In this document: positions 7,433 through 27,304 of the stretch, one piece after another
Layout: the number at the start of each line of letters is the position of its first letter
How positions within the stretch are numbered: position 1 is the first letter of the stretch
Assembly (NCBI GenBank): GCA_010093605.1
Contig: MU004192.1
Span: forward strand, 66,770 to 130,769
Direction of reading: 5' to 3'
Source of the DNA: Lophium mytilinum
Taxonomy: Eukaryota; Ascomycota; Dothideomycetes; Mytilinidiales; Mytilinidiaceae
Length of the DNA: 64,000 nucleotides
The notes under the pieces: model-generated
What the model saw: the letters and a program-made list of their open reading frames with translations, nothing else
The model's database searches: none
Told to the model about the DNA's origin: nothing
Program-made: the position numbers and the translations under genes

Positions 7433-9015
7433 GATTGTAGGACGACTCTAACAGACTTGTAGAAGAAGCTAGGCACATTTTGCTGAAACGCCGATACTGC
7501 CTTTATATATTCAGACGTTCCTGCAGCTCCACAGGCGTGATCGCATCTTGCCCACTTGGAGTCAATATCCAAGGATTATCAAAACTGTCAATGTGCATGG
7601 TCCGAGAAATTCCCCGGATTCTGGGGTGCTGCTACGTCGGAATTTTGCTGCTTTACTCGCGCAACAGGAAAACATCTACGCGAGCTACCTCAAGCAGTTC
7701 AATAGCCCCAATGAGGAGACCTTTCCGCATCGGGAGGATCGCCTGTTGCGGACGTCCATTGAGCCTTTTCTGCTGTGCTCCAACTTGCTCGCATGGATGT
7801 ACGGCGTGATGAGAAGGAGGATCGCCAGTGTTCTGACTTTCATACGGCTCAATAACGCCGAAGGGATGGCATTCGAAGGATCCCGTAGTGAGTTCGTGGA
7901 CCATACCTTGCAATGCGGAGCATATTTCCCCTAGAGACAGATGGCCCATTGAGCCGAGCGTTGATCGTGCTGGTCCATACGAAAGACCGTTCGTTCGGAA
8001 TCGAGGCTGGCGAGGATCTTGAGGGTCAGGTGTCTCTAAATGGCTGAGTTGTAGTATCACCTTATGTAAGCCGCCCTCAGCGGTACAACAACAACAAAAA
8101 CTACACGACGGCCCCTAGGTATTGGAGGAATGCGAGAGGTATCCCTCTTTAAGAGAGCACGAAATCCTGGAGCATACACTTGGGTTTGTCTTGACTCCGC
8201 CTACTTCGCAGCCAGAGCACGTGATCTAGAGAACATGCGTAATCTCGGCCATGATTGGGTGGTGTATTTCGTGAGAGGATCACGCTTGGGTAGGCTCACG
8301 GAGTAAAGTAACAACGAAAGCTTCACAACGGGATTCTTCCGCCGCGTAGAATAATGCATTGGGCATATGCGGCTCGATTCCCAGGTATCACACCCTCCCT
8401 ACGAGTGCATGAATGAACCTCAGCTGGTACCTATCGCGCTATTTTTAACCGGCGTGGGTATCGTGGCCCGCACAGACTTGCCATGGCTCGGCATATCGAC
8501 AGCCAGGACTGCCCCTTTCGATCAATCACCGTCAGGGTCCTCCCTCCTCGCGCGCTTTGGCTCGCTCCCTCTCGAACTTCTACCAAAGATGAATCCGAAA
8601 ACATGAGCAACTCTTGCGCTTCTAAAACTGGAAGCAGTCTGAGAAGCGCATTGAAGTCTGTGCTTGTCTTCTGTTGTGCCGCCCTTCAAATGCCGAGCTC
8701 CGACACCCCTTTTATCGTTTTCGCCAGCCAGGCCAGCTCAGCCGCCCTGTGGATTCTAGTTCGCCTCATGGCGCTCTCCCGCGAAGCTTCTATAGACGCC
8801 GCTCGCCTGTTTCTGACGCTTTGGGATTTCATTTACTTTGCCTAGACTCTCGCAGGGGCTTTCAAAACCACCTTCGTGCCCACTGTTTGCTCTCGCCTTT
8901 TTGCTTACGATGCAGTCACTCGCTTTCGCATTTCCTCACCTTCGTTTTTGATTTTATAGAGAGAGCGGTGTTTACATTAATATTATTGTCCAATCATCGT
9001 GCCCTCAACTGAAGC
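7433..9015. other. Divergent intergenic region between GH35 and peroxidase genes
   Basis: Divergent promoters face outward here. Two overlapping frames, plus 7548-7934 (128 codons) and minus 7653-8060 (135 codons), are open, but neither has a recognised motif and each is the shadow of the other. The plus reading has a more protein-like, helical composition, but I would not call it a gene. A pyrimidine-rich stretch at 8870-9015 is likely the 5' leader of the peroxidase gene. Confidence 0.4.
7501..7508 (-). promoter_or_regulatory. TATA box of the GH35 gene
   Basis: TATATAAA on the minus strand, about 70 bases upstream of the GH35 start codon at 7432, a normal spacing for a fungal core promoter. 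Confidence 0.45.
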
Positions 9016-10481
9016 ATGAGATTCGTCACCCTCCTTTCGCTTTCCGCGGCGGCGCGACAAGCATTTGCTGCGACGTACACAGCTGCCAACGGCGAAGTCT
9101 TCAACATCCAGCCTTCCACGGACTACTACGGGGGCGATCTCACACTAGAATGGACCGACACACTGAACCAATGCCTCGACAGGTGCTCGGTCACCACTGG
9201 ATGTATCCTTGTCTCCTTCATCGGACCGGGGAGAGGGCCATGCTATATGAAGAGTAGCTACTACCAAGCCCAAACCAACACGCAGGTTACTGGAGCAAAA
9301 TTGATTGCGTCTGCCACCAGCTTAGCTTCTTCATCTTCGACATCGACATCGAAATCTTCGACTATTACTAGCTCCGCCTTGTCTTCAGTAACGACAGCCA
9401 CAACCAGGGCTAGCACTAGCACCACCTCGGCTTATGTGTGCACTACTAGCGCCTCTGGATGGGAAGTACTTGGAGACTTGAAGAACAATGGCGCGAAAAC
9501 CCCTGTCGGTACAAACATCACTGGCGTCCTGACGGGCGATGCTGCAGAGGCCAAGACGGACTTGGGTTACACTCCTCCAGGGTTACGTGGAAGTGCTGCT
9601 TGCAAAGCGGATACCTGTTGCATATGGTCTTATATTGCCGCGGACCTCAAACCATTTTTCCTGGAAACCGACGGTACATGCAATCAATGGGCTCGTAGAG
9701 CTGTTCGCCTTGGATTCCACGATGCTGCCGGCTGGTCCAAGCCCAATAGTTTGGCAGGAAAGGACTACGGCGGTGCGGATGGAAGCATTGCGCTTTCCGC
9801 GGAAGAAGCAGCGCGGTCAGAGAATCAGGGCCTGGCGGATATCATTGCCAAAGTTCAGGAATGGCAAACCACGTATGGGGTTGGAATGGCAGATCTCATT
9901 CAATTCGTCTCTAATCTCGGTGCCGTGGTCTGCCCAATGGGACCTCGAGTTCGGACCTGGGTTGGCCGCAAAGATAGCTCCACGCCTGCTCCCACTGGCC
10001 TTCTCCCAGATGTCAAGGATAGTGTTGACAAGATCGTCTGTCTGTTCGGGGACAAGACGCTCAGCTACACTCAGCTTGCCGCGCTTATGGGCGCTCACTC
10101 CACATCTCAACAGTTCTTCGTTGATCCTAGCAAGGCTGGCCAACCACAAGATGATACGCCTGGAGTATGGGACACGAGGTACTATGAGCAGCATCGACCA
10201 GGCTCGTCGGTACCATCCGGGGTCTTCCAATTTGCGAGCGATTTGGCAATCGCGAACGACACGCGTACCAAGAGTCAATGGACTTCGTTTGCCATTTCTG
10301 GCCGGGCAGCGTGGGCAGCGGTAAGCCTTTCTTTCAGATAGATTCTGGAGACTCTCACTGACATATCTATCAGAGCTACGCTACCGCATACGTCAGACTG
10401 AGCTTGCTTGGTGTCAACAATATGAACAACCTGACAGAGTGCTCACACGTCTTGCCGAAAGCGGTACTGACGTTTCCCTGA
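9016..10481 (+). CDS. Secreted class II-type heme peroxidase (ligninase-like) with N-terminal PAN/Apple domain
   Basis: Predicted heme peroxidase that oxidises phenolic or lignin-like substrates with H2O2 outside the cell. CDS join(9016..10320, 10374..10481), 470 residues; the single 53-base intron (GTAAGC...TATCAG) keeps the frame and ends at TGA 10479-10481. Order: signal peptide ending near AFA (residues 1-18); a PAN/Apple-like Cys-rich segment at about 40-95 (TLNQCLDRCSVTTGC); a Ser/Thr-rich linker at about 97-140; and the peroxidase fold from about 165. RLGFHDAAGW holds the distal Arg231 and His235, GGADGSI the calcium-site region, and LMGAHS the proximal His361. All key residues are present. 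Whether it truly attacks lignin is not shown by sequence. The PAN module may give carbohydrate or protein binding. Confidence 0.9.
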
Positions 10482-11604: not shown

Positions 11605-14600
11605 ATGTCTCCTCGCGATTACTTTGCCAAAGAGTGGCCCACTGCTTTCTCGACGAGGACTATTCAACGGAACGTCGTCAAGGAAGAGAGATCTATCAAC
11701 GCAGAAGGCAAAGGCGCTTTGCTTTTCTTATGCGACACGAAGCACAAAGCACCCTCACGCAGAGTCCAAGCAGTGGGAGATTTCTGTCGAAACGCCTGCC
11801 TAGACGATATCAAACGTGGACTAGGCCCTGGTGGACAATGTCGGACTGCTTGGCTTGATGATAGGAGCTTTCCAAACGAGTTGAATGAGCCGGATGCATT
11901 AGATGCTGGAGAACTCAGAACATGTGCAAACCCACTGACGGCAACTTCACTTTACCATCATCTAAATCAACCGGTATAGGATCACCTGATATAGTTGGCT
12001 TCTGGATCTAGAGTTCAAGCATAGCTGACATTTTAATTAGCGATTTGGGAACGGAAATCTGCCCGATGCGGATAGACGGGTGATGTAAGACAAGTTCCCC
12101 GCCTTCCATCGTTTAGCTTAAGATACTGACTCTTTGTTTTAGTTACATATCCAACTTAGATCCTAGTCATGTTCTCGTGCTCGCAGAGACTGCCGCCTAC
12201 AATCAAGCCAAACCATTGAGAGATGCCTTTGTAAAGCATATGGGATATGAAACATCGATCCGAGTCAACATACCTGTAAGCACTCGAAAAGCCTATTGCT
12301 ATGTTGTTAAACACATGTTCTTATAATGACGCTAATCAAGACTGCGATTGTCTTGTCTTCCAGTATTCCGAATCGTTGCCATCTTTCCAGCTAGAACTAC
12401 ATCTTCCCTTCTTCGCCTTTAAACAGCTCCCATCATCATATGTAGACAGCTGGCACACACAAGGGAGCAACACGATTCCAACGAGATCCTGGATCGACCT
12501 ATCGTTCTTAAGCAACCAGACGTCAAATTTAGAAAAGGAACCACCTTACGGCATATACAAAGCACGGTCTTCCTTTATGATCTGTGGCTCGAATGACCGA
12601 CACTGGACTGGTTACGCTTTCGTAGATCGTGACATGGAAGATGAAGAAGAGTCCACCTACAATGGCTTAGTACAGAATCGAATTACTGGTTCGCCATCTA
12701 ACGTGCCCGTTTGGGACCCAAGAGAGTATTTCCTCATTGTTCTCGACGAAAACCTACTGAAAGTGCAGAATGAATGGGAGGATGTGGTATTCAAGGTTGC
12801 GCAAGGAATAGAGAGTCATGTATGCAATTTGCCTGGACTAAAGCATCTGTTGTACTACGACAAACTCGTACTGACCTTCATGACAGAGATATCACCGCTC
12901 AGATACTATGCCACGTGACCGTGGTATAACGTCACACGGTGATTTTGAAAAGGCTTTGGACTGGACCAACAGGACCATTTCGCTCTTGAGTCACCTCACA
13001 GAGCTTCTCTCCGACACAGTTGATGCTTGGGAAAAATTCAAGAACCTGGATAGAGACATCGACTACTTTTACGACTCCTCTGAGGCATCTCTGAAGTCTT
13101 CGAAATCGAAGTGTAACTTCTCAGAATGGCGTGCCCGACAGTCCGTCCGATCTATCAGCGAGAAGATCCTGGAACTGAAACGTCTGCAAAACAAACTTCG
13201 TTTATTGAGCGAGTCCTGCGACAAGTCTGTCAAAGATGTAAGTCTATATCCATAGTACCCTCTTCTCTAGAAGAATATCGCAACGAGTAGGGCAATGCTC
13301 CTAACTCTTACCTATAGCTTAAACTGCGGCAAGCTATTGAAATCAGGAAAGCGTCACAGCATACCGGACTCACCGCGGAATTCACTGTATTGGTTAGTCA
13401 GTTACATTCACTTCTAATATTCCGCGAGCGCTAATTCTCTCAAGGTGCTATACCCGTTCACGCTTGTACTAGCCTTTTTCTATATGCCACAGGCTTCCGT
13501 CCCTTTCACACTCAGCTTTAAATACTTCGTTGTATCGATCTTCGTTTTCATGGCTGCGATGGTTGCGTTCAAGATATTGTTTGTTACTCTCTCTGGCATG
13601 TTGCAGTCTTGGTGGCGGAAGGGGCCAGTCACCATAACGAAAGGTTTCTTCGAGCGGCTTCTTTTACGAAAGGCCGACGACAGCCTACCTTTCTCGAATG
13701 AAGATTTGCGTGGATGCTTCAACGATTCCATTCATTCGAAATATAGCCAGCACACGACACCAAACTTCGGGGACCCTTTCGATGATAATCAGTATGAATC
13801 ACTGCTCCAAGGAGTGGAGAATGGCGAACCCCCTTTTCTCGATAGTCCTTACCAACGTAACATATCCATAACAACCAAGGCGTTGTCTTCCACGCAAGAT
13901 TATCCTAATCCGAAACGCTCAGAATGTTCATATTACGAGGAACCAAACTCCGGCGATGACGCGACTGAGCTTCAGGAAGGACCTCCTAATCAGTCTTACC
14001 AGACGTCACTAGAACTCGAGAAAGGAACCGAGTGCTCCCCAATAACCAGCGAACCAAAAGCGTCACATGAGAGGCAACCAGCACTTAGCACCACTTCCAC
14101 AATTTGGTCGGGAGTGGATAGCGACTACGATTGTTCCATTGAAGAAGGTCCGTGTGATATATCGGTGCTAAAGGAGGAAATCATCGACCGAGTTATGATC
14201 CAGTTCTATCGAATGTTCTATGCAACACTTGGTAGTCGTGGTGCTGCGTCTGGAGAACCCAATTCCGCACATGGAGACCCACTCAATTACGGTGGCACCT
14301 CGAGCAGCGGATCTTCGCAACACAACACCGGGAAGCGAAAGACCAATAGAGATAGAAACCGAAGAGATAGCGATGAAGAAGATGGCAATTTGCACAAAAG
14401 GAGTAAACCTCACAAGGATGATGATGATCTTGAGTCTGATCGAAGACTTGCATGTCCTTACTTCAAACACAACCCCTCCAAATACCGGGACATCACCCCT
14501 TGTAGAGGGCCTGGGTGGACTGAGCTCTCACGTCTCAAGTGAGTCTAAGCCAAACCTTTCCCCTTACCAAGCGGAAGTATTAACGCAGTTTAGGGAACAC

Positions 14601-15619
14601 ATATATCGCTGCCATTCGCTTCCGCCTCGCTGTACCCGATGCTGTCAAATATTCAAGTCCGAGTCTGATGTGACAGCCCATTCTCGACTGCCAGAAGGGT
14701 GTGAGGTTCGAGACGGAGAACCGCCCGAAGGCATCGATGGCTGTCAGATACAGAAACTAAGATCCAAGAAGAGGGGTCAGTTCAGCAATACCAGAGAGGA
14801 TCGGTGGAGCTACGTGTATTCGGTTCTTTTTCCAAACATGGCGATCCCGTCACCGTGTAAGTAATACATTACTATCAAGATCGCACTTCTGAATTATCGA
14901 TTGACAACGCTCTAGATTACGATTATGAGGAAGACTTCGGTCAAAAACCTACCGATTCCCTAGTCTCTGCAAGACTCGCTCGTTATGACGCTTTTCTGAA
15001 ACGCCATTTGCCAAACATTGTCCGACAAGAGCTTCAAACCGAGATGGAGAAGGAGCTTAGCGTGATAGATGAGAACTTGACGAATAAGCTACCGAACATC
15101 GTTGAGAGCTGTCTAGAACGGCTTTGCCGGATGTTCCAAGGCGTGGCTTTAGCGGAACAGCCCATACAGAACGAAGGTTTAACACATGAGCGAGGGACCA
15201 ACGTGTCAGGCTCTGCCGAAGCGGTCGATGTAACTCCCTTTCCACACCTATCGTGCCAAGCCAACCTGGGGTCCTACCAAATACCCCCGGAGGTCTCCCC
15301 AGATTTCAACGACGAGTTCATGGCTTCATTCGATATGACTGGGAGCGGCCCGCCTGATTCAGCGTACTGGTCTCAGGGATGGCCTCGAGAAACAAATCCA
15401 CCAATGGGGGAGTCCGACATTCTCTTCTCTGGAACAGATCATCCGCGCGAGCTTTCATTTTCAGGTTTCGGGTTAAGGTCCCCAAGGGCCGAAGAAACGC
15501 AGACTTCAACCTATTCTCAAAACGAAGTGCAGAATTTTGAGAGTTTTAATCAGCATAGAAGTTCTCATGTCGGGAAGGGCAAGGGTAAAGCAAAAGGCTA
15601 TGATGCGAGCGAATGGTGA
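11605..15619 (+). CDS. CorA-like two-helix membrane protein fused to fungal C2H2 zinc fingers
   Basis: Nine exons: 11605-11973, 12041-12084, 12143-12275, 12364-12819, 12887-13237, 13318-13392, 13445-14538, 14594-14856, 14916-15619. All junctions keep phase and give 1,162 residues. The N-terminal half matches the Pezizomycotina CorA-like family: RRVIYISNLDPSHVLVLAET, FQLELHLPFFAF, WDPREYFLIVLDENLL. A coiled region then leads to two membrane segments at about 479-500 and 505-530. After about 280 mostly polar residues comes a second known fungal module from about 813: ACPYFKHNPSKY, PCRGPGW, LKEHIYRCH, then RCTRCCQIFKSESDVTAH and PPEGID. The tail is predicted helical and disordered. Exon 7 alone encodes both the helices and the start of the fingers, with no stop between them, so the join is not an artefact of merging. 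Role unknown: possibly a membrane-held regulator. No ion-transport GMN motif was seen. Confidence 0.82.
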
Positions 15620-16574: not shown

Positions 16575-18525
16575 ATGGGCTTGGAGAAGAAGGGATTATC
16601 GGCACGGTCATCGATCGAGAGGGAGACAGCGCTGGAGACGGAGGACGATCTTGTGCAGTCGCAAAACCCACCAACGGCTGGAGATGGAGAGAAAGAAGCT
16701 GGAATGGAGCCTGGTGGAGAGCAGAGACCTGTGGCGTCGAAGGCACGGTTGATTATACTGGTGCTCACGGTGACGGGTGCTGCGTTTTTGAATGTAGGCG
16801 GATCTTGGGGTTGTCTATGAAAGAGAGCTGACATGTCCAAAGACTCTAGCTGTACAAGCCTGCGTGATTGTCCTCCCGACTATTGGAAAGGAGCTTGATA
16901 TCCCAGAGAGTCGTCAGCAATGGGTCATCTCCGCCTACTCTTTGACATTCGGTTGCTTCCTGGTATGTCGCGTTCGCGCTATACAATACACCACTGGAAT
17001 GTTTTGCTAATTGTTTACAGCTGCTATGGGGACGCCTCGCAGATGTATACGGGAAACGAATGATATTCATATGGGGCTCCGCTTGGGTGACAGCGACAAC
17101 GATTGCGATACCATTTGTGGACAACGAGATTGGATTCGATGTGCTGAGAGGCTTACAAGGACTGGGTGCAGCTGCGAACGTCCCCACAGCTATCGGAATA
17201 CTGGGCGTCACATTTCCTCCGGGTAAAGCAAAGAATTACGCGTTTTCGTGCTATGGTGAGTGACGAATGGGAATGCCAAGACTTTGGCTTTAGTCTATAT
17301 CTAACGCGAAGTAGGCGCTGGAGCTCCGATGGGATCTATATTCGGAAACTTGCTGGTAACTTTACTGAGAGTAGTTTACTGGATAGAGCTGATCTTTTCT
17401 AGGGTGGCCTCATTGGCGCTTATTTGACCTGGAAATGGGTCTTCTGGATCCTTGCCATTCTCGCTGCAATAGTCACTGCGGCAGGCTACTTCCTCATCCC
17501 AGTCCCACCCATTCCTGCAAGCGCTGTGGAAGGACCCAAAGCAGCTGTAGACTGGATTGGCGGAACGCTCATCACGGTCGGGCTTCTTGTCCTCATGTTT
17601 GCTCTCACCGAGGGCAATGTGGTTGGCTGGAGTACGCCTTGGGTGTCCGTACTAATTGTAGTCTCCATCCTACTTATAGGCCTCTTTGTTGTCTGGCAAT
17701 GGTGGTTGGAGATGAAGACTGCGCGACGACCTTTGATGAAGGTCTCGATTTTCAATAATCTGAAGTTTTCTGCGGCGATGGTCACGATGTTGCTTTTTTT
17801 TGCATCTTTCAACAACTACCTTATTTTTGCTACCTACTTGCAAGTCTTACAACACCCTTATATCCTCTGAAGTCTGTCTAACAGAGCTTAGTTTCCAAGA
17901 ATACCAAGGTCTAAGCGCAATCCAAACTACCCTTCGCTTCATCCCCACCGGCGTTTGCGGTGGTGAGTTGCCCTACCATAAACTCTCTAGACATCCACTA
18001 ACCCTCGACCCAGTTCTTGTCGCTTTCGTAACGGCCAATATTCTCTCTCGAATTCGCGGCAACTACATTCTAATATTCGGCACCCTTGCTACCTCCATAT
18101 CTGCCCTCCTTTTCGCTGTCCCCATCCCACCTCACACGATCTACTGGGCCTGGAGTTTCCCGGCCATGATTCTGGCTGTTTGTGGCGCTGATACCGTGTA
18201 CCCTTCTTTGACCCTCTTCACCGCGCACGCTCTACCACAGGAAGACCAAGCACTCGGTGGCGCCCTCGTCAACGCGGTTGGACAGGTAGGCCGTGCAATT
18301 GGCCTCGCGATCGGTACGGCTGTACAGACAGCGGTGGTGGCGAATCGGAGGGGCATCCAGATCAAAGACGTGGGTCGAGATGGCCTGTCAAACAAGCACG
18401 ACGTAGCGTATCTAGACGGGTTGAGAGCGGCAGAGTGGTTCGATTTCGCATTAGGCATCGCAGCATGCGCAGTAGCCGGGTTTGCGATGAAGAACACGGG
18501 CATTCTAGGGGCGAAAAAGCACTAA
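16575..18525 (+). CDS. MFS drug:H+ antiporter, DHA2 (14-helix) type; one unresolved junction
   Basis: Predicted plasma-membrane efflux pump. Exons: 16575-16793, 16843-16962, 17021-17255, 17315-17355, 17403 to about 17843, about 17899-17962, 18014-18525; about 540 residues. Start chosen at the ATG giving MGLEKKGLS, followed by a charged cytosolic tail and then the first helix. Motif A is LLWGRLADVYGKR and the antiporter motif C region is GAGAPMGSIFG. At the fifth junction the family sequence YLQ-EYQGLSA is split. The only GT donor (CAA/GTCTTAC at 17844) is phase 0, while every AG acceptor that restores EYQGL needs phase 1. So either the splice is non-canonical, or there is a frameshift or base error. 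CAAG occurs at both edges of the gap. The gene is convergent with the racemase-like gene. Confidence 0.8.
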
Positions 18526-22218: not shown

Positions 22219-23361
22219 TTCGCGCTAGGCAGATATTCTACGTGCGATGGATCGGTTGTCATGAACTCTGGTATCAGGAATCTGCATGGATCTATCAGAG
22301 CGTCCTGGATGATCAATTGGAGAACTGTAATAAGACACTGGTAAGTCGCGTTCCACATGAAAATGGTGTCTGAGGGTGGCCTCAAAGCTTTTAATATAGC
22401 ATCTTGCCAAACACTAACACGCTAACGTGCCAGTGAATAGCAAGCTGCCAACATTGAGTTAGCAAATACACTGCTAAAAGTCATATAGGAGTAGCTTAGG
22501 TAATAGCGAGCAACGCTTATATTGAGATTCTGCTCACGTGATCTTGATCTGTTGTGACTGAGATCGGTTTGATCGCGGAGCCTCAGCTTAATGACTAACC
22601 AATTCTTGATCGTATGCATACTGTTTATAGCGGAGAACGATGGATCTAATGTTTTGATAGATAAGAAGCTCACCTGGTGGGATGATGCTGCGACCTATTG
22701 TACCGCACGGCTTCTTTTAGCTTCTTTAGCTAGCATGCAGGCGGATGCAAGGGTAAATACGCCACTACAGCCTCTTCCCACGTCCGGTGGTCTAGCGCGG
22801 AAACTGAGTCAACCCTAGTCAAGGTCCTTTTTCAGTCTATTGCTGAGCTGGTTCAACTACTAATTGGTTAGGAGACTGCTATTCCTCTCTAGAGGGCGTC
22901 CGGGAAGAGTACCTTATACGGTAATTCTGTGGCGTTATTTTAGCGCTGGTTCACCGGACGTGGGAGAAGACTGTAGTTATGGCGAGAAGTCCCTTTTTGG
23001 TCTTGGCAGGGTCCAAAAGGCTTTGTTACGCAGCATCTTCTAGATGCGCTAACCGGAGGATCCGAGAAGAGGCTGTGAATGGGTACGAATCTGCCTCGGT
23101 CTGATCCCTTGTGATTGGTAGGGGTTCAAATGCGTTAGGCTGTGAGTAAGCACCCGCTCATCATCCGCCTACCTTTGTAACCATGCACGGCCATGCAGGG
23201 ACTACTCTGCTGGGTTAAAGTTTGAGGGAACCCCTCCGATCTTTGAGAACGTCTGATCGTCACTTTCATCTCAGATATGACGCTTGGAGGCTGCATTGCC
23301 AGCGCTTTTCAGATTCCATTTCGCGCCTAAGCTCTTTGTTTCCGGCGATTCCGCACTCAAT
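22219..23361. other. Intergenic region upstream of the hybrid histidine kinase
   Basis: No gene supported apart from a possible missing first exon of the minus-strand unknown gene (about 22230-22400). A GGTTCAAAT motif near 23127 resembles a Pol III B box, but no tRNA fold fits around it. Confidence 0.4.
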
Positions 23362-26300
23362 ATGCCAAAATCGTGTTCACCAACGGCGCGGGAGCGCGAA
23401 GTCTATCGGTGTGTGCGGAAGCCACTCCGAACCAGCCCTGGGGGCTTGAGGCTAACAAAATTACTTAGATATTATCAACCCTCAGACGATCCCGTTCCAA
23501 CCGCGAAATCCTATCCAAGGACAGATGTCCCGCGATCATCAAGCGATCCAGTCTTGACAGCCTTCGCTCAGCTGGGTGCTCACAGACTAAGGGCCAAGCG
23601 TGGTCTCATCACGCTTTCTACGAGAGAAACCGAATACATTCTTGCGGAATCAGGAGTAGGCCTCGGTTTGCAGCAAGACGACGATAAAAACGATCCACTA
23701 TGGCACGGAACTGTTGCGCTTCATAACACTACCGGCCTTGGAATGAAACTTTGCCACCATTTCTGTAGTTCCAAGGAAGACCTCCCTTATGCTGCTTTCG
23801 ATGATCTAAGGAATTATAAAGAGTTCAAGGACCAATATGTCGTGACCCACCCTCCGCACATCAGGTTTCTTACTTGCGTACCTCTTCGATCTTCGATATA
23901 CAATGCGATCATTGGTACGTACATCGTGGTGGACGACAAACCACGTGATGGGTTGACCGAGGAGGAGGTTGAGTTCATGATTGATATGGGCGTGACGGTA
24001 ATGGATTATCTCGATGCTCAACGCAACAATCGGAAACAACACCGTGCGGAAAGGATGGTCAAAGCAATTGGCCTTTTCATTGAGGGAAAGTCGACTCTCC
24101 GGGAGTGGTGGTTGCAAGGCGGTCATAAGAGGGAGCAAACGAAGGTGACCAAACGAGCTCGCACTGGCACAACGACGCTGGATGTTCAGGCAGACATCGA
24201 GTTTGGTGTCCAAGACCCCGTAGAACAGACTTTTACCCGAGGCATGGAGAGTCTTTCAGAGCATGATGGGAAACCACTTCTGTCACGATCACCCTCCTCA
24301 TCTACCCTCTCGCACATCGAACGCAAGGGTGACGGACGACCTAAGATCCCCAATAGAGACAGCACGTACTCTGCATCAGACACTACGATTCCGTCTGCCG
24401 TATTCTCCCCAGCGCCCCAAGCAGCCTCCGTAACCACAGCCGACACAACTGAGGGCTCTACTACCGGTCACGTTAGACATACCTCGGTTGCTTTTGACAT
24501 GCCCCAGGAAACCGCCGACGTGTCGAAGGAGCTTCAAGAAGCACTCCTGACGAAAGACTTGAAAGCAGTTTTTGCTCGGGCCAGTAACCTTATTCGGGAA
24601 GCTGGCGGCGTGGATGGTTCCATATTCTTTGATGCTAGCGTGGGATCTTTCGGCGCTGCTTCTGAGAAGGACATCATGGGCCAGAAAGCTCCAGGTACTT
24701 TCCACGTTGATGAGACAATGACAACTAGTGACGATGATTTTGCACGCAAATCCTCGGACCAGGATACTCCTCCCAGGAATGCCAATGATGGTAGCCCGTC
24801 TGAGCAATGCTGCAATATCCTTGGTTTCAGCACCCGGAAACGTTCCAGTCTCAAGGGCCACTCGCCCCCCCCTGAGCATCATACCTTTCCGGAAAGAGTG
24901 CTGAGAACACTGCTAAAACGATATCCGCATGGGAAAGTTTTCAATTTCGATGAAGATGGGTCGTTCTCGTCCAGCGACACAGATAATGCGTACATCGGAG
25001 GCGAGGATGAAGACGGACCGCGCAAACACGTGAAATCTGAAGCAACGATTCGGCGGAAAAAGGTATCGCGAGAAGCAGAAGCGGCCGCGCTTTTGAAGGC
25101 ACTCCCCGGAGCTCGCAGCATCTTTTGGTTCCCGCTCTGGGATCCAACCAGAGAACGGTGGTATGCAGGGTCACTCGTGTGGTCAACCGGTACACGAACT
25201 CTTTGTCCGATTGAGGACCTTGCCTACCTCGCTGCGTTTGGCAATAGCATCATGGCTGAGGTAGCCAGACTCGCCGCCCTGGTCCTCACTCAGATGAAGA
25301 CGGATTTTATTTCAAGTATTTCTCATGAGCTACGGTCCCCGCTCCATGGTGTTTTAGCCAGCGTGGAATTCCTCCAGGAAACCCCCCTGACGGAGGTGCA
25401 AGCAGATATGGTCAGCAATATCAATGCATCCGGCAGAGTGCTTTTAGACACAATCAACCACGTTCTCGATTTCTCAAAAGTTAACAAGAAGGTGAAAGGC
25501 AGGGGAAAAGTCTCAAAGAGAAGGACTGGAAAGAAGCAGAGACTTTCTTTTCAAGACCATGAGAACTTGGATAACACGGCAGAAGATAATGCGGATATGT
25601 GTATCCTATCGGAGGAGGTTGTGGAGAGTGTATGGGCTGGTCGAAATATGAGTAAACTTCTTTACCCAACGCCTGCTAGTCACCAAAGGTCACGCCCGCA
25701 ATCGATGATTGGCGCCCCCGAAACACCTGTAACCATCATCATGGATATTAGATGGCAGCCTAATTGGACTTTCGAGATGGATGCTGGCGCATGGAGAAGA
25801 ATCTTGATGAATCTTTTTGGGAACTCGATGAAGTATACCAAGTCTGGATTCATCAAGGTGTCAATGGCCGTTGAAGAGAATACGAGTGTCAGAGGGAAGA
25901 AAGCACGTTCCATGCTGGTGCTCAAAGTCAAGGACTCTGGCAAAGGGATGTCCAGAGAGTATATGAAGCATCATCTATACAAACCATTTACTCAGGAGGA
26001 CTCGTTGGCGGTGGGAGCTGGACTGGGTTTGAGTATTGTCCGGCATATCATCCAGGACCTCGGCGGAGAAATCAACTTCACCAGTGAGCAAGGAGTTGGA
26101 ACAGAAGCAACAGTCAAGCTGCCTATGGTAGCTGGTCCGCCAACCAAGGATGACATATCGGACCTAGTCGCGGATGTGAAGGGATCGACAAAAGGAAAGA
26201 AATTCCACCTGGAAGGGTTCGACAGATATCCGGATATCTCAGAAACACCCACGGGTATTCTCTCCGCTGATTCCGAGGCCGCCATGTTTCTCAAGTCGTC

Positions 26301-27304
26301 GATTCACGTCATGTTGACCGAATGGTTTGAAATGGACTCATCCACCGCTTGCATCTCGGACAAGACTGCAGAAGTAGTGGTCATTATGGAATCTGGCATT
26401 CCTTCCTTGATGGAGAAGTTGCAATCATATGAGCCTGGTACAGGACCATCGATTGCTATAATTCTCTGTAGCGCATACCCCCCTACCGGAACAGCCACTG
26501 TCATTGGATCACTCCGGGTGTTTTATGTTCCTCAACCGTACGTTAAGCTGTATTGTTTCTAGCCTTCCTGCTAACATAATTTTAGTTACGGCCCTCACAA
26601 AATTGCGAAGACTCTTCACCATGCCTTCACACAGTCATTCCCCCCCGAACCCACCCAAGACACCACCGCTTTGCCTACAACTACACCCTCAACTATTCCC
26701 GAACCGGGCACCCTTTCAACAGGAGCTGAATTTCACACACCTCAATACCACGGTTTCGCTACACCAAAACCACCACTATCCCCGCCGCATCCTGCTCAGA
26801 TCGACCGCAGAACATCAATCGACACGTCTATTATGCAACCCACCGGGATGCGCATTCTCCTCGTCGAAGATAACGAGATCAATCTGAAACTGCTAGTAGC
26901 GTACATGCGAAAGCTGAAGTTAAACCACGCGACGGCGATCAACGGGCTCGAAGCACTAAACACGTATAAGGAAGCCAAGGGGGGTTTCGACGTCATATTC
27001 ATGGGTATGTCTTTTCTTCCGTAACCCTACTTTCTCACGGAATATATCTGACCTCCGCATAGATATCTCAATGCCAATAATGGACGGCATAGAGTCGACG
27101 CGACACATCCGCCGCTTCGAGCGCGAGACATCCATTCAGCCGGTTGCGCTTATCGCGCTGACGGGTGCGGCAAATCCGAACACGAGGCAAGAGGCATTTA
27201 GCAGTGGGATTGACTTATTCTTGACGAAACCGGTGCCGATGAAGAATTTGAAGGTTATGCTTGACGATTTGAAGGTCAATGGACGGCAAGGGTTGATGGC
27301 TTAG
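23362..27304 (+). CDS. Hybrid sensor histidine kinase: GAF - HisKA - HATPase - degenerate receiver - receiver
   Basis: Two-component sensor that autophosphorylates on His and passes phosphate to its own receiver. CDS join(23362..26537, 26586..27004, 27063..27304), 1,278 residues, all phases closed. The open frame begins upstream, but 23362 is the first in-frame ATG. GAF-like region at about 62-230 (LPYAAFDDLRNYKEF, PHIRFLTCVPLRS). HisKA with SHELRSPLHG, phospho-acceptor His655. HATPase: N box NLFGNSMKYT (Asn near 817), G1 DSGKGM, G2 GLGLSIV. At about 1000-1090 a receiver-like segment lacks the acidic pair. True receiver at 1147-1265: LLVEDNE, phospho-acceptor Asp1199 (MDISMPIMDG), ALTG Thr and FLTKPV Lys. 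No transmembrane segment, so it is probably cytosolic. The signal sensed is unknown. The fungal HK group was not assigned. Confidence 0.92.

Follow-up and report, generated by a model that had tools for sequence, protein, structure and literature searches.

Organisation of the locus

In a 64,000-nucleotide stretch of Lophium mytilinum DNA (C12:66770-130769; hereafter the window), which belongs to the searched genome (24 contigs, 43.2 Mb), a gene model joins a CorA-like membrane module to a pair of putative C2H2 zinc fingers (Table 1). The relatives, introns and codon usage of the window suggest a fungal character. The eight introns of this fused gene are all GT-AG, measure 52-88 bases each, and none has a length that is a multiple of three. 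Splice-aware self-alignment returned the same exons, the query being that same model, so this agreement is not independent. The initial annotation had given the gene the span 11605-15619, an exon at 13445-14538 and a first finger at about residue 813, all of which we recovered; the two membrane helices that it set at residues 479-530 are present as well, and are placed by hydropathy at about 473-490 and 503-524. Helix 1 is split between the end of exon 6 and the start of exon 7, the latter exon encoding most of this helix, all of helix 2, the linker and the first half of finger 1, which is divided by intron 7 (14539-14593).

Table 1. Features of the fused gene, in positions of the window
Feature	Position	Strand	Basis or remark
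Fused gene, nine exons, 1162 residues	11605-15619	+	Model, GT-AG introns
Exons	11605-11973, 12041-12084, 12143-12275, 12364-12819, 12887-13237, 13318-13392, 13445-14538, 14594-14856, 14916-15619	+	Last exon includes stop
CorA-like module, residues 1-556, encoded by exons 1-6 and the first part of exon 7	11605-13684	+	L052 alignment, distant CorA profile similarity
Membrane helix pair, residues 473-490 and 503-524, with YMP at the GMN place of CorA	13381-13588	+	Hydropathy, charges, alignment
Linker with join, residues 557-701	13685-14119	+	Shuffle test; weak L054 N-terminal similarity
Beginning of finger module, including the helix common to relatives, and acidic/basic stretch	14120-14452	+	Alignments, sequence
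NLS-like basic clusters	14333-14416	+	Judged by eye, without prediction tool
Finger 1: C813, C829, H843, H848 (C-x15-C-x13-H-x4-H)	14453-14615	+	Ligands invariant in 12-copy alignment
Finger 2: C854, C857, H870, C877 (C-x2-C-x12-H-x6-C)	14631-14702	+	Ligands invariant in 12-copy alignment
Remaining finger module to C-terminus, split by intron 8 (14857-14915)	14703-15619	+	L054 alignment to residue 1162

Upstream of the fused gene lies a peroxidase frame (window 9013-10338; PF00141, E 9.9e-23), and downstream an MFS-type frame (17764-18522) whose match to PF07690 (E 1.2e-7) is slightly below the cut-off. A frame of 1093 codons at 23281-26559, with HisKA and HATPase_c domains, is a histidine kinase candidate. 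Only short repeats were found around the fused gene.

The claim that the two modules are fused through one uninterrupted exon is borne out by stop counts, by shuffling and by the shared intron positions described below. Over its 364 codons, exon 7 contains no stop in its own frame, compared with 7, 30, 15, 18 and 12 in the other five, and the whole exon was open in none of 5000 dinucleotide shuffles, which rules out a chance open frame; the 145-codon linker taken separately was open in 14 of 5000. Codon usage weakly favours coding by exon 7. The score of the exon 7 frame was positive in all 13 sliding windows and the highest of the three forward frames in 12 of them, a reverse frame exceeding it in three and equalling it in one, and it stood clearly above the intergenic 95% level (0.06) in only two of the 13. 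This measure has little power, the known exons 1, 2, 3 and 8 not being best in their own frame.

Separate relatives of the two halves and the origin of the join

Searches across the genome with each half of the fused protein, from which all copy counts are lower bounds, led to different places for the CorA-like half and the finger half. The initial annotation had taken the two modules for separate families, and this holds to the extent that each is encoded by separate genes elsewhere in this genome. The CorA-like half identified at least four other loci (L052, L053, L060 and L061), none of which is at a finger place among the matches listed. L052 encodes a full-length CorA-like relative, which aligns over residues 2-556 of the fused protein and ends 40 residues past the shared part. 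The match at L053 (L053:2095-3685) reaches residue 450 only, the membrane pair not being found by alignment, and L061 is a distant CorA-like relative. At L060 (C19:861 kb, minus strand) the match within 7 kb was confined to the two final CorA-like exons, and this locus is possibly a remnant.

The finger module is present in at least 14 copies including the fused gene, and among the matches listed the fused gene alone adjoins a CorA-like module. The nearest of the other copies, which number at least 13, is L054, a protein of 704 residues with a different N-terminus, in which the shared part extends to the C-terminal region; the C-terminal end of the fused protein resembles that of L054 (GKGKGK..DA.W). 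The N-terminal parts of the finger relatives are unlike one another. No second fused copy was found: the CorA module had best scores of 40-61 at the 12 loci that hold the 13 other finger copies, whereas the whole fused protein scores 753 on L053 and 1109 on L052, and none of the 19 PF01544 places in the genome lies within 60 kb of any of these 13 copies, among the matches listed.

Several finger-module loci have features of their own. An open frame of 920 codons at L055:1815-4574 (minus strand; C2:1531-1534 kb) matches DUF3295 over residues 90-269 (E 1.5e-68) and also holds a finger module (about 394-691), and is possibly another finger fusion, or two genes in one frame; it was the one ORF to pass the Pfam cut-off out of ten scanned beside finger copies. 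Three finger-module copies lie in a row at C13:26-34 kb (L063, L067), near the end of a contig whose first 3 kb are very AT-rich. The copy at L065:4021-4787 contains internal stops, one of them at a ligand position, and looks decayed.

Intron placement is the strongest support for the join that the sequence comparisons provide. All six of introns 1-6 interrupt the same residues in the same phases as those of L052, the nearest CorA-like relative, and both introns 7 and 8 likewise coincide in residue and phase with those of L054, the nearest finger relative; at L053, three of four introns are identical and the fourth is one residue off. An artefact of assembly or gene modelling is unlikely, as either half has its introns exactly where a separate relative has them. 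From the agreement of six introns with L052 and two with L054, a CorA-like gene was apparently joined through its last exon to the opening exon of a finger gene, and the simplest history appears to be one in which the CorA-like exon lost its stop and the junction was in frame.

The position of the junction can be narrowed by comparison of the linker with both relatives. The linker weakly resembles the N-terminal part of L054, with a score of 55, against a shuffle mean of 38, and this score was reached by 23 of 1000 shuffles. No similarity was detected between residues 557-602 and residues 1-135 of L054 (999 of 1000 shuffles reaching the score) or between the L052 tail and the linker (745 of 1000). 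The linker from residue 603 (13823) may thus belong to the finger gene, and these alignments are suggestive of a join point within residues 557-602, with residue 701 as its latest position.

Character of the membrane half and of the zinc fingers

The relationship of the N-terminal half to CorA is distant. When the whole fused protein was compared with Pfam nothing passed the cut-off; there was no match to PF01544 for the fused protein at E up to 5, nor for L052 or L061 at E up to 10, and the fused gene is not among the 19 PF01544 places of the genome. A profile of the CorA-like module matched no CorA protein in the PDB (best E 0.078), NCBIfam returned only two weak matches below cut-off, and no relatives were found in viral or prokaryote contigs, as expected of a fungal gene. 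With hhalign, a profile built from five relatives was aligned to six CorA proteins that are encoded in this genome and carry GMN, and it scored 33.3 at helix 1 (probability 41.6%). These six represent six of the eight CorA loci, L002 and L006 being left out for having no segment under the search pattern. Controls reached at most 15.6 for 60 column shuffles, 13.5 for the reversed profile and at most 16.8 for 23 unrelated segments, which were taken from seven other ORFs of the window, two of them MFS-type; the shuffle and segment controls used the query stretch 335-540. Against the single CorA sequences the scores were 39.8, 28.7, 22.4, 22.0, 16.7 and 13.8, the last two at control level, with hhalign probabilities from 0.2% to 81.3%. 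The profile similarity spans helix 1 and the helix preceding it and lies above all controls.

The GMN motif is important for transport by CorA proteins. At its place the fused protein has YMP, L052 and L060 have AMP, and L061 has SMP. The label 'CorA-like' used in the initial annotation is thus upheld by a profile similarity above all controls, but as a distant likeness only, with neither a Pfam match nor GMN. The membrane half would be CorA-like in build, and a role as an ordinary magnesium channel is unlikely since the GMN signature is missing; a plain Mg2+ transporter, with no GMN and no Pfam match to point to it, was set aside.

According to the positive-inside rule, basic residues are enriched on the cytosolic side of membrane segments, a principle that can be read together with the known topology of CorA. 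The 36 residues past helix 2 contain six K/R (and three D/E), and the 12-residue loop between the helices contains one K/R, from which we infer that both ends of the protein, and hence the fingers, lie in the cytosol.

Fungal C2H2 fingers, as originally proposed, are supported by ligand conservation and by profile comparison. Of the 13 other copies, 11 have the full set of eight ligands, the exceptions being L065, with a stop at one ligand, and L066, in which the last cysteine is displaced. A single-sequence Pfam search with the fingers remained below cut-off (E 0.26). A profile of 12 copies, from which L065 and L066 were left out, matched 11 distinct C2H2 sequences of solved structure with E no higher than 0.001, the best being Aart, a designed DNA-binding protein (8.4e-10), a consensus zinc finger (9.8e-6) and CTCF (4.4e-5), and the solved proteins so matched are DNA-binding C2H2 proteins. 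From the conserved ligands and these matches the fingers look real, and the finger part would be predicted to bind zinc and nucleic acid.

Possible roles of the fused protein and comparison with known systems

Taken together, the locus probably contains a single fused gene that gives rise to a zinc-finger protein anchored in a membrane. Anchoring would be by the two helices of the CorA-like part, with both ends of the protein in the cytosol, where the fingers would be presented on a linker of at most about 150 residues, and the anchor would control where the fingers act. In the idea of a tethered regulator put forward in the initial annotation, the arrangement of fingers after two membrane segments is retained, and their side fits the cytosol by charge pattern. 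As the leading mechanism we suggest, more tentatively, that of a tethered regulator in which nuclear action of the finger part requires either cleavage or separate synthesis from an internal start at 14195, a step that we hold to be less likely than not. It is improbable that the protein works as an ion-sensor-to-gene switch, in which membrane state or cations sensed by the CorA-like domain would decide the access of the fingers to the nucleus.

Transcripts that end within exon 7, with a separate start for the finger part, had been named beforehand as a finding that would speak against the fusion. In-frame methionines occur at residues 490, 512, 515 and 528 and then at 727 and 733, so that after the membrane pair a finger-only product could start in the exon 7 frame at 14195 or 14213. 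As no in-frame ATG lies between 528 and 727, the whole finger module has no start of its own in this frame, and either of the two available starts falls inside the helix that precedes the fingers and is common to the relatives; a product from either start would nevertheless retain both fingers, and the methionine positions speak only in part against separate transcripts.

In the strict form of a membrane-tethered transcription factor, regulated cleavage would be followed by nuclear entry by way of the basic clusters and by control of genes through the fingers. The predicted cytosolic side of the fingers and the resemblance of their profile to DNA-binding C2H2 proteins argue for this, as do the NLS-like clusters, counterparts of which are seen by eye in several separate finger relatives, but there are two fingers only, one with an unusual 15-residue cysteine gap, and we consider the strict form doubtful.

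The chief rival to an anchored protein with nuclear release would be a protein of recognition or immunity type, in which the CorA-like part serves as effector or sensor and the fingers as a binding module or decoy, with the nucleus optional. This analogy draws on mimpvic32, a CorA-like gene of Morchella importuna described as a vegetative-incompatibility candidate with eight introns, 765 residues (in the text; 773 in the table) and allele differences that are mainly C-terminal (PMC8940278), and on the NLRs of Sordariales, zinc fingers being described in 57 of these, at the C-terminus in 52 of the 57 and of C2H2 type in 34 (PMC12258605). Pfam matched no NLR part in the fused gene, which counts against a recognition role, and we regard such a role as unlikely.

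Distinctly unlikely is a recent neutral fusion that has no function of its own and has stayed open through lack of time. A single fused copy in the genome, among the matches listed, would be expected of such an event, and L052 and L054 are not close enough for the join to be dated; against it, 1162 codons are open and every splice site and ligand is kept. Two products from one locus, whether as separate CorA-like and finger transcripts or through an internal start, with the whole frame rarely or never translated, would be compatible with the ATGs at 14195 and 14213 and with a stop (14540-14542, inside finger 1) that is reached when intron 7 is retained, but the CorA-like part has no in-frame stop before finger 1 and an internal start would cut the shared helix, and we judge this improbable.

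If the membrane-anchored zinc-finger protein is expressed as modelled, it would be a clear example of how a fungal finger module acquires a membrane anchor while separate, parent-like genes persist in the genome. Release of the fingers would add a membrane-to-nucleus route in fungi, and without release the gene may connect recognition proteins with C2H2 modules. Failing this, it would be one more combination from families with varied partners.

With the CorA metal-transporter superfamily (PF01544) and fungal CorA-like proteins the fused protein shares a pair of helices close to the end of an extended helical region, the pattern FxxxxxxPxxxxxxFxMx at helix 1 and a charge pattern that fits both N- and C-terminus inside, whereas it differs in having no Pfam match, YMP in place of GMN and a long C-terminal extension with fingers. 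With C2H2 proteins it shares two adjacent fingers with all ligands, and it differs from them in the wide cysteine spacing of finger 1, in a finger 2 of C2HC type and in the membrane anchor upstream. SREBP/Sre1 and Mga2/Spt23 are membrane-held regulators, and the fused protein would resemble them in carrying, next to a membrane anchor, a putative DNA-binding part that faces the cytosol, although the domains and anchors are unrelated. Likened by description, mimpvic32 is also a fungal CorA-like gene with eight introns, shorter than the fused gene, and the term 'zinc finger' does not occur in the main text of the paper describing it (PMC8940278). A CorA-like protein described from accessory chromosomes of Fusarium oxysporum also combines a CorA-like part with another domain, the partner there being ankyrin repeats, and is again likened by description (PMC12345182). 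At the level of titles and the opening lines of abstracts, a pairing of CorA with C2H2 fingers is not reported in the papers that literature searches aimed at it returned, and the fused gene is a new combination of known modules, each of which occurs with varied partners.
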